From: Sinomonas susongensis
GTDB taxonomy: Bacteria; Actinomycetota; Actinomycetes; Actinomycetales; Micrococcaceae
DNA length: 64,000 bases
Direction: 5' to 3'
Assembly: GCF_005877005.1 (NCBI RefSeq)
Contig: NZ_SSNH01000002.1
Coordinates: 1 to 64,000, forward strand
Under the pieces are notes generated by a model. The model made no database searches. It saw only the letters and a list, made by a program, of their open reading frames with translations, and was not told the origin of the DNA. Positions 58,153 through 64,000 of this stretch are shown here, piece by piece. How positions within the stretch are numbered: position 1 is the first letter of the stretch; each line of letters begins with the position of its first letter. A program made the position numbers and the translations under genes.

Positions 58153-59664
58153 CTAGCTGTTGACGACCGACGACGTCGCGAGGACCTTGCCCTGCGCGTC
58201 GAGCGCCTGCGCCGCCAAGTGCGGCGCCGCGGCGACAGCGACGGAGGTCTCGAAGCCCGTCTTCTTCACGACCGCGGCCTCCTTGAGCGATGACGCATCG
58301 CTCCCCGTCAGGAACCGCCAGCTTGCAATCTCGGTGGCGCCGTTCCAGCTCGCGTAGGCCTGCATCGTCGAGCCGTTGCCCTGGACGACGACGACGTCGG
58401 GCACGGTCGTGGGCGTCGCGGTCCACACCGAGCGGTACACGCGGTACGACCCCGAGCCGATGTTCGTGGCCTCGAACACTGGGGTCCCGTCCGCGGCGAA
58501 CTCCGTGGCGGCCGGGTCCGAGCCCCAGCCGACCATGTAATGGCCATTGTCGAGGAACTGGACGTTGCCCATCGCATTGCCTCGGTGGCCGCCGCGGGCG
58601 AGTTCCAGCTTGACGGAGGCGGTGCGCTTCTGCTCATCCACGCTCAGGATCAGCCCGCGGGAGGTGCCCGTCGTGCCGTCCTTGTAGTGGTTGTCGAACA
58701 TGCTGATGACGCCGCCCGCGCGCTGGCGGACGTCGTGCTGCCACGCGAAGACGGCGTTGGCAGGAAGCGTGAAGTCGCTCCTCTTCCCGCCCATGCGCCA
58801 CTGAATCGATCCCGTGCGATCGACGAGGTAGATCGTGTGCGTGTGCCTGAATGAAACGAGGTACCCATCGGGGCGGAGGGAGACGGCGTTGACGTGATAG
58901 GGGTCGAAGGCCTTTGCGGCTGTCGTGCCGTCGGCCGTCGGGTCGTCCGAGGTCCTCAGGTAGGACTCGTCCAGCCCGACGTAGTCGGAGGCCTTCCAGT
59001 CGAACAGCAGATTGCCCGTGGCGATGTCCACTTCCTGCACGTGGCAGTCGAACATGTAGCCGTTGGTCTGGCCCCCGGCCGGCGTGAGATCGAACTGGAT
59101 CGTCGGGTACGACGTCAGGAGAGCCGTGCCATTGGGCGTGATCGTGAACTCGTGGAGGTCGGCTTTGAGACCGTCTCCGGCGCTCACCTGGGCGATCGTC
59201 CGGTACGAGGTGTCCTTGATGATGCCGGATCCTTCGCCGTGGCCGCCCATACCCTGACCGCTCCAGTACGTCAGGACCGGCTTGCCCTGGTAGGTCTGGA
59301 CACGCAGATCCGTGACGCCTGCACCCGTGGGCTCCATCCACACGGGGCGCCCCTGATTGTCCATGATGAGGCCGTTCGAGCCGTGGCCCATCGGTCCCGC
59401 AAAGACGAGTCCGGGCGCCGTGGTGCCAGAGGACCAGACGTTGATGTGGGGGGTCGTGAGCTTCGTGCTCACGAAGGTGCGGTCCGGGGGTGCTGTCGCC
59501 CCTGCCGTCCCTGACGCCGATGGAGCCGGAGTCGCCGCTGACGCGCTGGGCGGCAAGGGGAAGATGCTCGAGCGGGCGACGGTTGCTCCGGCGGCGGCGC
59601 CGAATACCGCCAGGCCCGCTCCCTGAATGAAATGACGACGACTAACCCTGACCATGGCGACCAT
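58153..59664 (-). CDS. Arylsulfotransferase-like protein with Tat signal
   Basis: The 503-residue protein starts with a twin-arginine signal (RVSRRHFIQGAGLAVFGAAA, SRRHFIQ at residues 8-14), so it should be exported folded. The mature part shows repeated blades of a beta-propeller: SNGLIMDNQGRPVWMEP, FDPYHVNAVSLRPDGYLVSF, RHTHTIYLVDRTGSIQWRMG and AFAWQHDVRQRAGGVISMFD. These are arylsulfotransferase (ASST/DUF4214-free) signatures, with histidines on the inner face. I chose the ATG at 59664; 59655 is possible. A sulfotransferase activity in this organism is not proven. Confidence 0.8.
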   Translation of the reverse strand: MVAMVRVSRRHFIQGAGLAVFGAAAGATVARSSIFPLPPSASAATPAPSASGTAGATAPPDRTFVSTKLTTPHINVWSSGTTAPGLVFAGPMGHGSNGLIMDNQGRPVWMEPTGAGVTDLRVQTYQGKPVLTYWSGQGMGGHGEGSGIIKDTSYRTIAQVSAGDGLKADLHEFTITPNGTALLTSYPTIQFDLTPAGGQTNGYMFDCHVQEVDIATGNLLFDWKASDYVGLDESYLRTSDDPTADGTTAAKAFDPYHVNAVSLRPDGYLVSFRHTHTIYLVDRTGSIQWRMGGKRSDFTLPANAVFAWQHDVRQRAGGVISMFDNHYKDGTTGTSRGLILSVDEQKRTASVKLELARGGHRGNAMGNVQFLDNGHYMVGWGSDPAATEFAADGTPVFEATNIGSGSYRVYRSVWTATPTTVPDVVVVQGNGSTMQAYASWNGATEIASWRFLTGSDASSLKEAAVVKKTGFETSVAVAAAPHLAAQALDAQGKVLATSSVVNS

Positions 59665-59713
59665 CGTATGAACGGACCCTGTGGCAGCGGGAGCCCTAAC
59701 CTGTAGTTTTACT

Positions 59714-59760
59714 GAGAGGGCGCCGGGAGCAGCCCTACGGCCTGCTCCCGGCGCCCTCTC
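59714..59760 (-). terminator. Hairpin downstream of the Ig-repeat surface protein gene
   Basis: A perfect 19-bp inverted repeat (59714-59732 with 59742-59760) and a nine-base loop begin 15 bases after the stop at 59775. It should end transcription of the surface-protein cluster. No U-tract follows. Confidence 0.75.
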
Positions 59761-59774
59761 TACAGTGAATGCAA

Positions 59775-61913
59775 TCAGAAGCCGGAGACGGCTCCGGGTA
59801 CAGATGGGCCGCTTCCAAGAGACACGCCGCCGACGTCCGTGGCACTCCCCTGATAGCTCGGGGCACCGGCTGTGGTAGAAGTCGTGGGAGGAGTCCCCTT
59901 GAACAGAGAGCCGAGTCGAATAGTCAAGGTGGTTTGGTCGCTGCTCAGCGAGACCGTTGACTGGTTGACTCCGCTTCCCTTGAACTGGAGCGATCCGTCG
60001 GCTCCCGCGGTGGTGTAGTTCGCCCCGAGGAACACCGTCCCAAAGTTGGCAGTGGTACAACCCGTAGACGAGAGCGTTAGCGTGTCATTGGAGCCGTTGT
60101 GAGTGATCTGAACGTTGAGACCGCTACTCCCGGTCCAAGTGCTCGACGCTCCAGTCCAGGTGCTGCAGAGGCTGGTCGGCGATATGGGCTCATTGAACAC
60201 GATGGTGACCACATCACCCGGGGCCACCTTCCCGGTGGCACCAGTCGGGTTCGACAGTTTGACATAGGACACCTTGGGACCGATCCGGCCGGTGGCCGTC
60301 GCGACACCGCTCACGTTGCCGTAGGTGTCCGTGGCTTGGGCCGTGTAGGTGAACGATCCGGAGGCTAGGCTCGACAGGTTCAGCGTCGTCGCCCACACTC
60401 CCGTGGAGGTGTTAGCGGTCACCGTGGACGGGACGCTGCTGCCTCCCGCGTTGCTGGCCGACACGGCAACCGAAGCGCCAGGCTCCGCGGTGCCCGAGAC
60501 CTGGACGGTGCCGACTGCATCGCTCGTGATCTTGGCAGGTGCGGCGGTGAATGTCGGCAGCACCGTACTTGTCTTCTTGGTGTCGGTCTGCGTGACCGAG
60601 GGTCCCGTGTTGCCGGCGGCGTCGGTTGCGGTTGCGGTATAGGTGAGCTGGCCGTCGGTGAGGCCTGTGAAATTCAGCCCGGTCAATGACCAGCTGCCGT
60701 CCGATTTGGCCGTCACACTCAAGGGAATGCTGTGCACTGCGCCCGCATCACTCACGGTGAGGGCGACGGAGGCCCCGGGCTCAGCTGTGCCTGACACCGT
60801 CTCGGATGCCACATCCTTCGACGAGACCGACGTGGGGACGACGAGCGAGGGCGCGCCGGGTGCCACGGTGTCCTTCGTCAGGGTCGCGGTCGTGGCGGGG
60901 CTTGTGTTCCCTGCAGCATCCGTCGCCGTTGCCGTCACGGTGATCGGACCGTCGACGAACCCCGAGAGGTTGAGCGTCGGAAGCGACCAGGACCCGTTCG
61001 AGCTCGCGGTTACGGTCGGGCTCGTGGTGTGGCCGGCGGCGTCGGCCACCACCACCTTGACCGTGCTCAAGGCCTCGGCACTTCCGCTGACCGGGACGGC
61101 GGAGACGTTGGACAGGTTGACGAAGGTGGGCACTACCAGCGCTGGTGCACCCGGCGCCTTGGTGTCGATCCGCACCGTCACCTGCTGGGCCGCCGAGACG
61201 TTGCCTGCCACGTCCGTGGCCGAATACGCGACGGTGTGCGTTCCATCGCCGGCCACGCTCACGTTTGCCGTGCCGCCCGGGACGGTGACCGACTGCCCGC
61301 CGTCGACCGTGTACGAGATGGACGCAACGCCGCTGCCGCCCGCCTGGTCCTGTGCGGCGAGGCTGACAGAGACGGGGCTGCTGTTGTTGTAGCCCGCGCT
61401 GTTCGGTGTCGGGGTGATGCCCGCGACCGAGACGCTGGGGGCAATTCCGTCGGCGATGGCGCCCGCACCCCGAGATCCCTCCGTGCCTGCCCAATTCCCG
61501 AGAACGGGCGTCACGGTGTAGTACCAAGTACCGTTCGGCACCGCGGATTCGATGCACGAGAGGTTGGTGACGACACCGGAACATGCGCCGGTCGCCGGCA
61601 CAGCGGTGCCTCCCGAGGCTGTGCTGTAGCGCTGCACGGTGTAGCCCGAGACGGCCCGGCCTCCCGCCGTCGTGCTCGCGGCCCAGGAGACGGTGAGATC
61701 CTGCTTCGCTGCGCTCACCGTGGGGCGCGCTCCGGCCTGCACGGTGTCGGCGACGGCGATGCCGTCGGGGCTTGTCGACGTCGCCTGCCAGTAGGCGTAG
61801 GCGGCGGCACCTGTTCCTCCCACGAGGAGGACGGCCGCGAGAGCGGCAGTGCCGCGTCGGCCGGCTCGGACGGCGCGGCGCCTGCGGGGTTGGCGGATCT
61901 GGTCGTCGCTCAC
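59775..61913 (-). CDS. Secreted multi-domain surface protein with Ig-like repeats and SipW-like signal
   Basis: The 712-residue protein has a basic N-terminus and hydrophobic segment ending in AYAYWQA (residues 21-43), resembling SipW-dependent signals. It continues with a fibronectin III-like domain (about 63-150, Cys111 and Cys120) and a Ig-like domain to about 250. Three bacterial Ig-like repeats (about 255-345, 350-440, 455-545) carry variants of GSWSLTGLNFTGLTDGQLTY and TATATDAAGN. A C-terminal domain has Cys583 and Cys619. There is no LPXTG or other anchor. The GTG at 61913 overlaps the upstream stop. A structural or adhesive role is inferred. Confidence 0.8.
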   Translation of the reverse strand: MSDDQIRQPRRRRAVRAGRRGTAALAAVLLVGGTGAAAYAYWQATSTSPDGIAVADTVQAGARPTVSAAKQDLTVSWAASTTAGGRAVSGYTVQRYSTASGGTAVPATGACSGVVTNLSCIESAVPNGTWYYTVTPVLGNWAGTEGSRGAGAIADGIAPSVSVAGITPTPNSAGYNNSSPVSVSLAAQDQAGGSGVASISYTVDGGQSVTVPGGTANVSVAGDGTHTVAYSATDVAGNVSAAQQVTVRIDTKAPGAPALVVPTFVNLSNVSAVPVSGSAEALSTVKVVVADAAGHTTSPTVTASSNGSWSLPTLNLSGFVDGPITVTATATDAAGNTSPATTATLTKDTVAPGAPSLVVPTSVSSKDVASETVSGTAEPGASVALTVSDAGAVHSIPLSVTAKSDGSWSLTGLNFTGLTDGQLTYTATATDAAGNTGPSVTQTDTKKTSTVLPTFTAAPAKITSDAVGTVQVSGTAEPGASVAVSASNAGGSSVPSTVTANTSTGVWATTLNLSSLASGSFTYTAQATDTYGNVSGVATATGRIGPKVSYVKLSNPTGATGKVAPGDVVTIVFNEPISPTSLCSTWTGASSTWTGSSGLNVQITHNGSNDTLTLSSTGCTTANFGTVFLGANYTTAGADGSLQFKGSGVNQSTVSLSSDQTTLTIRLGSLFKGTPPTTSTTAGAPSYQGSATDVGGVSLGSGPSVPGAVSGF

Positions 61914-62419
61914 TTGCGCACCTCGAGGGTCAGGGGAACGTTGAAGAACGCGCCTTGGCATCCCGCGTCCGAGGCCATGGACATCGAGACGCTGCCCGGC
62001 AGCGTGACGGTCTGCGTGCCGTTCGCTGGAATGGTGACGGCGGGGGCCAGGGGCGCGGACGGATTCTGGAAGGTCACGCCGGTCGTCACGCACCTCGAGT
62101 GCGCCGCGTCGGGCACTGCACCGCCCGCCGAGCTGACGCTGTAGAGCTGCACTGGATACCCATTCGGGTTGGTGACCTTGAGTACGACGTCGGCCGTCCC
62201 GCCTGGCGAGAGGGGCGCCTGTCCGGGGGCGGCCTGGACGAGGGCTTGGGTCGTGAGGGTCTGGAGTTGGCCCGCGGCTGCGGAACCCGGGCCGCTGCCC
62301 GTCGTGCTCCAGTAGGCGATCGCCGCGCCCGCTCCCCCAAGGACGAGCGCCGCGCTTGCGGCGACTGCGATCGCCGAGCGGCGGGTCCTCCGGGGGAGGC
62401 TTCCCTTGATGGTGGCCAT
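61910..62419 (-). CDS. Secreted protein with SipW-like signal and two-cysteine module
   Basis: The 169-residue protein has a basic start (KGSLPRRTRRSAIAVAASAA) and a hydrophobic segment ending GAAIAYWST, similar to peptides with SipW-type cleavage. The mature part contains LSPGGTADVVLKVTNPNGYP, then Cys110 and, 44 residues later, Cys154 in DAGCQGAFFNVPLTLEV. The same layout recurs in the two genes upstream. It overlaps the 712-residue gene by four bases, so they are coupled. The function is unknown; a small pilin- or matrix-like subunit is one possibility. Confidence 0.72.
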   Translation of the reverse strand: MATIKGSLPRRTRRSAIAVAASAALVLGGAGAAIAYWSTTGSGPGSAAAGQLQTLTTQALVQAAPGQAPLSPGGTADVVLKVTNPNGYPVQLYSVSSAGGAVPDAAHSRCVTTGVTFQNPSAPLAPAVTIPANGTQTVTLPGSVSMSMASDAGCQGAFFNVPLTLEVRK

Positions 62420-62420
62420 G

Positions 62421-63563
62421 TCAGTTCCCCTGTCCGGATCCGGAGTAGGACAGGGCGATGGTCGCGCCCTTGCACCCGTCCTGGTTTGCAGGCCTGTCCA
62501 GCATCGTCAGCTTGGGCCACTGGCTGCCTGGCACCGCGAGTGAACTCAGCGAGCTGTTCCCCGAGGGAATGGACACGGGATAGGGGCCCGAGTATTGGAC
62601 CACCGCGAAATCAGCTGTTGTGCAGGGCAGGTTGCCCGCGATGGCCGCCGCTGACCTCGTGATCCCCATGACCGTAACCGAGAGATTGGTGATCGAGATC
62701 CCCTGGTTGTTCGGGTTCGAGAAGCTCAATCCCAGAGGCTGGGAGACGCCCGGAGCGAGGGGTGAGGCCGCGCTCCCCGAAATGGTGAAGGCCTTGCCAT
62801 TGCTGAGCACTTGCAGCTGGACGTTCGCGTACCCGTACTGGGTCTTGCCGGAGGCGTCCTGGCCCGAGCCGACGATGCTGAGCGTGTTCGTGCCTGCCGC
62901 CGCACTCGGGGACGCCGTGACCTGGAGCGTGGACGTGTTGCCCGTCGCTGGGTTGGGAGAGAAGGTGGCCGTCACCCCGGTCGGCAGACCCACGACGCTC
63001 AGGGAAATCGGCCCGTCGAGGTTGGTGCGCGAGAGCGTGAGACTGTACACCCCGCTCGAGCCGGGGGCGATGCTGACCGTGCTCGGGCTGCTCGAGAGCG
63101 AGATGGACCCGGAGAGCGGATAGTTGACGGTAAGGCCCGCGGTGGTCGACGCCGCTGTCTTCCCCGACGTGCCTTGGATCTCCACAGTGGAAGCCCCCGC
63201 AGGAGTCGACGACGTTGTCGACAGCGTGAGGGCCGTCGTGGCAGAAGCCCCTGACGCAACGTTGACAGTCGCCGGGGAGAAGCTTGCGCTGGTGGCAGCT
63301 GGAAGCGATGACGCCGTCATGGCGACCGCTCCCGCAAACCCGTTCTGCGAGGTGATGGTGACGGTGTATGCCGCCGCGGAGCCGCGCGCGATGGACTGGC
63401 TTGCGGGCGAGATCTGGACGGTGAATCCCGGCTTCGCCGTCTGTGCCGCGGCGAACAGGGCGCCGGCCGGCAGCATCACCGCCAGGAAGCTGATCACCGC
63501 GATTCTGATGATTCTGCCGCTGGCCCGGGGGCCGTTCTTCAGGAGTTTCCCCAACACGCTCAC
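62421..63563 (-). CDS. Secreted Ig-like protein with C-terminal two-cysteine module
   Basis: The 380-residue protein has a signal sequence (RIIRIAVISFLAVMLPAGAL, cleavage near 40). Two Ig-like modules follow (FTVQISPASQSIARGSAAAY, then ISLSSSPSTVSIAPGSSGVY, each with a THXTFSP-like ATFSPN/SFSPAT strand). The C-terminal module PLAPGVSQPLGLSFSNPNNQ has Cys314 and, 50 residues later, Cys364 in NQDGCKGATIALSY. It ends one base before the next gene starts. No membrane anchor is present at the C-terminus. Confidence 0.75.
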   Translation of the reverse strand: MSVLGKLLKNGPRASGRIIRIAVISFLAVMLPAGALFAAAQTAKPGFTVQISPASQSIARGSAAAYTVTITSQNGFAGAVAMTASSLPAATSASFSPATVNVASGASATTALTLSTTSSTPAGASTVEIQGTSGKTAASTTAGLTVNYPLSGSISLSSSPSTVSIAPGSSGVYSLTLSRTNLDGPISLSVVGLPTGVTATFSPNPATGNTSTLQVTASPSAAAGTNTLSIVGSGQDASGKTQYGYANVQLQVLSNGKAFTISGSAASPLAPGVSQPLGLSFSNPNNQGISITNLSVTVMGITRSAAAIAGNLPCTTADFAVVQYSGPYPVSIPSGNSSLSSLAVPGSQWPKLTMLDRPANQDGCKGATIALSYSGSGQGN

Positions 63564-63610
63564 GCTGTGTCCCCTCTGTGGTTGCTCATGGGGGTGCGGT
63601 CATGGATGCG

Positions 63611-63645
63611 CGTCGGGTGGGGCGGATCGCCCGCCCCACCCGACG
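63611..63645 (-). terminator. Hairpin between the partial gene at the window end and the 380-residue gene
   Basis: A perfect 15-bp stem (63611-63625 with 63631-63645) with loop ATCGC lies six bases after the stop at 63651. It can terminate or attenuate transcription inside the surface-protein cluster. Confidence 0.7.
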
Positions 63646-63650
63646 GCGGA

Positions 63651-64000
63651 CTAGTTGCTCGCGACGGTGATCGTGATGGTCGCGCCCTTGCAGGCGTCCT
63701 GGTTGTCAACCGTGTCGGCGAACGTGAGGGTCCCGGTGCCGACCTGGGTCCCGGAGGCGTTCGCAGCGACCCGGACGTTCGCCGTGTTCGCCGTGGCGGT
63801 GAACCAGGCCGGGAGGCACTGGGCGTTGCTCGTGGTCACGGTCGGCGTGAGGGTGCCCACGACCGTGCTCGATGCGTTCCCGTTGTCTGCCGTGTACGTG
63901 ACGTCCTTGGACGTGCCGGGGGCGATGCCCTGGTCGAAGTTCGCGTGAATCGTGACGGTGCCGCCGCCTGCGGATGCGGCAGCATTGCCGCCACCAGTGC
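63651..64000 (-). CDS. 3' part of a secreted protein with the two-cysteine module (cut by window edge)
   Basis: At least 116 residues of the C-terminus are present. The visible part is beta-rich and Thr/Ala/Asn-rich (GGGTVTIHANFDQGIAPGTS, then TYTADNGNASSTVVG). It contains a cysteine in SNAQCLPAWF and, 42 residues later, one in NQDACKGATITITVASN. This is the same module as in the next two genes. The N-terminus and any signal lie beyond 64000. Confidence 0.7.
   Translation of the reverse strand, partial: TGGGNAAASAGGGTVTIHANFDQGIAPGTSKDVTYTADNGNASSTVVGTLTPTVTTSNAQCLPAWFTATANTANVRVAANASGTQVGTGTLTFADTVDNQDACKGATITITVASN

Follow-up and report, generated by a model that had tools for sequence, protein, structure and literature searches.

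Matrix-fibre subunits that are cut by SipW-type signal peptidases are known mainly from Bacillus. One report on that system describes TasA fibres as growing by donor-strand exchange (PMC9674648), and another describes TapA as an immunoglobulin (Ig) domain with one core disulfide (PMC10151520). According to a third source, ordinary signal peptidase is hindered by aromatic residues at P2', and TasA, which has Phe at P2', is cut by SipW, a peptidase of the endoplasmic reticulum (ER) type (PMC10269814). Here we describe four adjacent genes, denoted g1 to g4, in a stretch of 64,000 nucleotides (nt) of Sinomonas susongensis (contig NZ_SSNH01000002.1, positions 1 to 64,000; hereafter the window), whose genome is 3.77 Mb in size. 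As judged by sequence comparison, g1, g2, and g3 share one homologous domain of ~110 residues, a predicted beta-sandwich with a conserved cysteine pair. Together with g4 they form one accessory unit of ~4.8 kb.

The two-cysteine domain was found to make up the whole mature protein of g1 and g3 and only the C-terminal part of g2. A first-pass annotation of the window had reported three related protein ends in adjacent genes, and all three are present, on the minus strand. The cysteines are spaced exactly as it had claimed, with C96/C138 in g1 (spacing 42), C314/C364 in g2 (50), and C110/C154 in g3 (44). The PLxPG...NPN strand that it assigned to two of the genes occurs in g2 and g3, and a variant, APG...DNGN, in g1. 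Two of its statements had to be narrowed. The NQDxCKGA signature is present in g1 and g2 only, with DAGCQGA in its place in g3. The description of a C-terminal module behind differing N-terminal architectures suits g2 only, because g1 and g3 each consist of a signal peptide and this one domain.

The homology itself, which the annotation had proposed as one shared beta module, was well separated from chance in profile-profile comparisons. With signal peptides trimmed, the E-values were 1.8e-19 for g1-g2, 7.3e-11 for g1-g3, and 2.8e-10 for g2-g3, versus 0.12-0.23 for a control in which another Ig-like domain of g2 was compared with the g1, g2, and g3 modules. Untrimmed and smaller alignments gave 5.1e-16 for g1-g3 and 3.4e-15 for g1-g2, and a weak score for g2-g3 (2.2e-4, probability 45). 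A profile built from 11 g1 relatives had three matches only in its own genome at E ≤ 0.1, and these were the three adjacent genes (7.9e-54, 1.1e-16, and 1.0e-14). The domain is not matched in a consistent way by any Pfam or NCBIfam model, in agreement with the annotation, which knew of no named family for it: NCBIfam models matched 0 of 51 g1 proteins, and the Pfam matches were isolated ones, found in 1 of 51 g1 proteins each, in at most 2 of 23 g2, and in 1 of 7 g3. A sequence search of solved structures returned a single match, FAP47 (E 0.0043).

A scan of named genomes yielded 175 pattern hits, 114 of them relatives, and 79 loci were kept. The cysteine pair was conserved among the relatives, as had been expected, with both cysteines kept in 84 of 85 g1 rows, 58 of 59 g2 rows, and 52 of 54 g3 rows. 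Two of 87 g1 rows, which were shorter than 80 residues, and one of 55 g3 rows were dropped from this count. The two g3 rows without both cysteines are a split frame and a frame at a contig end. The g2 and g3 counts are the fairer test, because one of the two g1 search patterns contained the second cysteine and g2 and g3 were found as neighbours. Conserved positions in the domain are mainly the cysteine pair, its Q.CK context, and a few Gly, Pro, and Asn residues; those listed do not include a conserved group of His or Met.

Predicted structures of g1 and g2, a check that the annotation had suggested, are confident and point to the same relationship. The AlphaFold2 model of g1 (mean predicted local distance difference test, pLDDT, 89.7; predicted template modelling score, pTM, 0.79) is a generic Ig-like sandwich. 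The g2 model has a mean pLDDT of 88.6 and a pTM of 0.41, and the placement of its domains is therefore uncertain. The two models have the same strand order, with a short helical turn by each cysteine; the order of elements around both cysteines is the same, and no difference in fold was seen. Foldseek gave no match for the g1 model at E ≤ 0.001; its structure matches, with a top Z of 7.7, were generic Ig-like sandwiches. The best structural match of the g2 model (Z 12.4, root-mean-square deviation 8.8) lies over the two Ig-like domains at its N-terminus and not over the two-cysteine module. We infer a disulfide between the two cysteines, next to the last strand. Covariation (effective depth 63-122, weak) is weakly consistent with this disulfide in g1 and is not proof of it. 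In g1 alone, the best pairing of strands 50-56 and 108-114 is antiparallel with an index sum of 162, close to the 164 (61+103, the cysteines in the numbering of the model) expected for a bond, and several other pairings score equal or higher; when g3 is included, these two strands pair best in parallel.

The 79 loci include members of Sinomonas, Arthrobacter, Paenarthrobacter, Pseudarthrobacter, Cryobacterium, Nocardioides, Terrabacter, and Patulibacter. The order g1-g2-g3 was present in 51 of them, invariably on one strand; 12 loci had g1 only and 16 had other mixtures. The synteny profiles were built from loci of the sampled genomes, and some of these loci lie on contigs that are also represented in the 79. 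In 64 of the 79 loci, the next frame downstream, on the same strand, is g4-like, and 3 more loci have such a frame at another offset. It was missing from 12, of which 4 have less than 600 nt of sequence left. The profile of the first domain of g4 had 10 seeds, 9 of them from these loci, and 9 matches are therefore present by construction. The g4 gene is the commonest partner of g1 and follows it also where g2 and g3 were not found (e.g., L122, L124, L143, and L152). The tandem set recognized at first is thus conserved as g1-g2-g3 and was incomplete, since g4 also belongs to it, as its frequency and the joint absence of the genes in near relatives indicate.

That the four genes are one unit is concluded because close Sinomonas relatives keep the flanking genes and yet are without g1-g4. 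Among Sinomonas genomes, the two-cysteine domain was detected in 5 out of 12 and the LysR-type gene that lies upstream of g1 in 12 out of 12. In two relatives (L192 and L193), the LysR-type protein and the arylsulfotransferase-like protein encoded beyond g4 are ~90% identical to those beside g1-g4 here and their genes are direct neighbours, and g1-g4 were not found. Comparison with L192 showed that the similarity of the flanks ends 28 nt from the end of g4 and restarts 14 nt before the LysR-type gene. At a third site (L195) g1-g4 are also missing, with ~1.2 kb of other sequence instead, and at a fourth (L194) all four genes occupy the same place. Three further loci (L024, L025, and L196) have g1-g4 without these flanking genes in the stretches examined. 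The arylsulfotransferase-like gene is not counted as a fifth member of the unit, as it is retained where g1-g4 are absent.

The distances among g1, g2, and g3 over the 51 loci were correlated (Mantel r 0.75, 0.79, and 0.89). This is what joint inheritance would predict, and shared species history would give the same. The domain was detected in 11 of 149 sampled Micrococcaceae genomes with a profile (E ≤ 1e-4) and in 13 of 149 with a single sequence (E ≤ 0.01), and a phylum-wide sample gave a match in 21 of 396 genomes, several of these in the signal-peptide part only. No g1 relatives were found in viral contigs or phages. The plasmid search returned only one replicon with a g1 relative, of 1.35 Mb and from Arthrobacter; a second g1 query had no match.

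Several single loci deserve mention. Two contigs of metagenome-assembled genomes labelled Chloroflexi (L143 and L144) carry g1 and g4-like genes, which may reflect transfer or a mislabelled bin. Arthrobacter sp. ISL-30 has two complete g1-g2-g3 sets on separate contigs (L086 and L090). In another family member (L032:6477-9296), the gene after g1 has a similar signal peptide, followed by repeats that look by sight like ice-binding (DUF3494-type) ones. In one genome (G201), a match to the g1 profile in the signal peptide only is accompanied by a match of the camelysin type (PF12389), a hint that signal peptides in the style of g1 are common to several protein families.

The positions of the genes and associated features are given in Table 1. 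The window edge cuts g1, which has 150 residues in full and starts at contig position 64103. The genes are tightly packed, with 1 nt between the g2 stop and the g3 start and with the GTG start of g4 overlapping the g3 stop (GTGA). Upstream of g1 on the opposite strand lie the LysR-type gene and then a peptide-deformylase-like gene (both named by sight). On the other side, a minus-strand arylsulfotransferase-like gene with an N-terminus in the style of twin-arginine translocation (58153-59700; names by sight) adjoins g4. Immediately beyond the g4 stop, close to the left edge of the unit, is a long GC-rich inverted repeat with a terminator-like look (59748-59790).

Table 1 Features of the g1-g4 locus in the window.
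Feature	Position	Strand	Description
g1	63651..64000 (contig 63651-64103 with stop)	minus	AYW-type signal peptide and one two-cysteine Ig-like domain
Hairpin	63611..63645	minus	GC-rich, directly 3' of the g1 stop; 15-pair stem, 13 G-C, without T tract
g2	62421..63563	minus	380 residues; N-terminal hydrophobic helix, two Ig-like domains, C-terminal two-cysteine module
g3	61910..62419	minus	169 residues; AYW-type signal peptide and one two-cysteine module (DAGCQGA form)
g4	59775..61913	minus	712 residues; AYW-type signal peptide, FN3-like domain with cysteine pair (named by sight), Big_13/Big_6/Ca_tandemer-type repeats
Accessory unit	59748..64000	no strand	Without counterpart in the empty sites L192 and L193; right edge beyond the window, near contig position 64534

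To characterize the export signals, we analyzed the ends of the signal-peptide regions. An Ala followed by an aromatic pair (mostly AYW) closes this region in 79 of 81 g1 frames and 53 of 55 g3 frames; AYW was part of one g1 search pattern, and the g1 count is therefore partly by construction. The g4 gene of the window also has this arrangement and its g2 does not. The N-terminal helix modelled for g2 could be a signal peptide or an anchor. LPxTG anchor ends were found in 3 of 59 g2 relatives (L147, L155, and L156). The repeats of g4 scored above curated cut-offs for Big_13 (81.5 vs 27 bits), Big_6 (46.2 vs 27.6), Ca_tandemer (70.7 vs 50), and an OmpL47-type model (79.1 vs 40).

The genome has one ER-type (SipW-like) signal peptidase above the TIGR02228 cut-off. 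It lies on contig C36, not on the contig of g1-g4, and by sight it has His where ordinary peptidases carry Lys. Its domain is part of a frame of 563 residues (L160:5159-6850; C36 near 143158-144849) with a long C-terminal extension, and a two-cysteine-domain gene is not near. In the sampled family, 116 of 149 genomes have a TIGR02228 match at E ≤ 1e-6, of which 95 are above the cut-off. Elsewhere, at L139:2482-3024, a SipW-like peptidase frame (E 4.1e-8) is located upstream of g1 on the same strand.

The stem after g1 was found to recur across the loci. Stems with z < -2 relative to dinucleotide shuffles follow g1 in 58 of 78 loci and g4 in 35 of 64, compared with 5 of 59 after g2 and 4 of 66 inside g4. 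Runs of five T were rare (1 of 78 after g1 and 2 of 64 after g4). Compensatory changes varied between groups: one group of 11 sequences had double changes at 5 of 12 pairs and another of 9 sequences at 1 of 15. An earlier control with mononucleotide shuffles (at least 8 GC pairs in 58 of 78 loci after g1 vs 19 of 150 controls, which may include non-gene frames) is superseded by the dinucleotide test. Terminator-like stems after the first and the last gene would fit excess production of g1. A promoter scan at the locus found nothing.

Taken together, we give about an even chance to the reading that g1-g4 constitute an accessory operon whose products build a fibre or adhesin of the cell surface or matrix. 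The homology, linkage, and unit status of the genes are firmer than this function. In such a system, g1, g3, and g4 would leave the cell by the Sec route and be processed by a signal peptidase of the ER (SipW-like) type whose gene lies at another place in the genome, as the aromatic pair behind the Ala site suggests. Owing to the hairpin, g1 would be the abundant bulk subunit. The g2 protein would anchor the structure to the membrane or wall, in the window by its N-terminal helix and in some relatives by LPxTG. The g3 protein, with the same domain as g1, would be a minor subunit, and g4 a long repeat adhesin making contact.

Several observations weigh against this reading. The peptidase does not track the set, being detected in 9 of 11 set-bearing genomes (not G052 and G123) versus 116 of 149 overall. 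A SipW-like gene was found near the set in only 1 of 79 loci (L139), with a single-sequence query of short reach that recovered its own sequence and missed the added ordinary peptidases. The signal peptides score below the cut-offs of the NCBIfam SipW-type models, with 15.6 bits for g3 versus the 60 required for TIGR04089 (E 0.013), and TIGR04088 was matched by 1 of 11 g1 proteins (E 0.0042) and not by the g1 of the window. LPxTG is missing from the window and from most relatives. Finally, no donor strand is visible in g1, because its N-terminal tail is rich in Gly, Ala, and Ser and its modelled sandwich has all its strands.

The same genes could instead encode a secreted adhesion complex that does not polymerise, in which g4 is the surface adhesin and g1 and g3 are partners or caps. 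No polymerisation signal was recognized in the set, and g4, with its adhesin-type repeats, accompanies g1 also in loci in which neither g2 nor g3 was found. The conserved terminator-like hairpin behind g1, however, suggests that the small subunit is made in excess, as would befit a bulk component, and we regard a complex without a fibre as rather unlikely. Domains without a structural role, be they generic secreted Ig-like domains or ones that bind metal or assist an enzyme, would account for the unspecific structural matches, as Ig-like domains are common, and a copper chaperone appears in a low-ranking Foldseek row. The modules are, however, specifically homologous to one another and tightly linked to an adhesin-like gene, and the pattern of conserved residues, mainly the cysteine pair, Q.CK, and a few Gly, Pro, and Asn with no His or Met set listed, also argues against such domains, which makes this explanation very improbable.

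It is likewise improbable, if a little less so, that the set consists of true TasA/camelysin relatives that have diverged past sequence detection and polymerise by donor-strand exchange. These too are small secreted beta-sandwich proteins in a similar signal-peptide context, and hhalign aligned the C-terminal hairpin opposite that of camelysins, although not significantly. Against this, PF12389 has no match in the genome at E ≤ 10, and profile comparison with seven actinobacterial camelysin-like sequences gave E 0.03-0.08 and a probability under 2, near the unrelated Ig control. Membership in the camelysin family (PF12389) was rejected on the absence of a genome match and of a significant profile-profile score. 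TasA is absent from the structure-match lists of g1, an absence that carries no weight.

A bolder form of the fibre reading, which we put forward only tentatively and consider doubtful, is that g1-g4 represent a novel fibre class. It would consist of disulfide-clipped Ig subunits (g1, with g3 as a variant) released by ER-type cleavage, a g2 anchor, and a g4 adhesin, would be separate from TasA, and would have spread through Actinomycetota as an accessory unit. Our literature search, whose coverage of subscription journals was poor, found no description of g1-g4. SipW-type peptidases are widespread in this actinobacterial family, and g1-g4 provide a concrete candidate of four genes, found in Micrococcaceae of soil and their relatives and based on a domain family that lacks a model. 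The locus makes the role of the actinobacterial SipW-type peptidases directly testable.

Compared with known systems, g1-g4 resemble TasA-TapA in logic, by analogy, without sign of donor-strand exchange. As in the TasA-TapA-SipW operon of Bacillus subtilis, small secreted proteins predicted to be beta-sandwiches are encoded together and an aromatic residue follows the signal-peptide cut site. The predicted Ig-like sandwich of g1 with its conserved cysteine pair recalls TapA, a likeness by description. Unlike the TasA system, the set has no detected sequence relation to camelysins and no sipW, contains three copies of the two-cysteine domain, and includes a large repeat adhesin. The operon also resembles Gram-positive sortase-built pili in combining a small subunit, an anchor candidate (with LPxTG on the g2 of the three relatives named above), and an adhesin; unlike in those pili, simple patterns found no sortase-motif frame in any of the 79 loci and LPxTG on no g1, g3, or g4. 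The g4 protein is similar to Big_13/Ca_tandemer repeat adhesins in its repeat scores, and differs from them in its length of 712 residues, in starting with the FN3-like two-cysteine domain, and in being tied to g1-g3.

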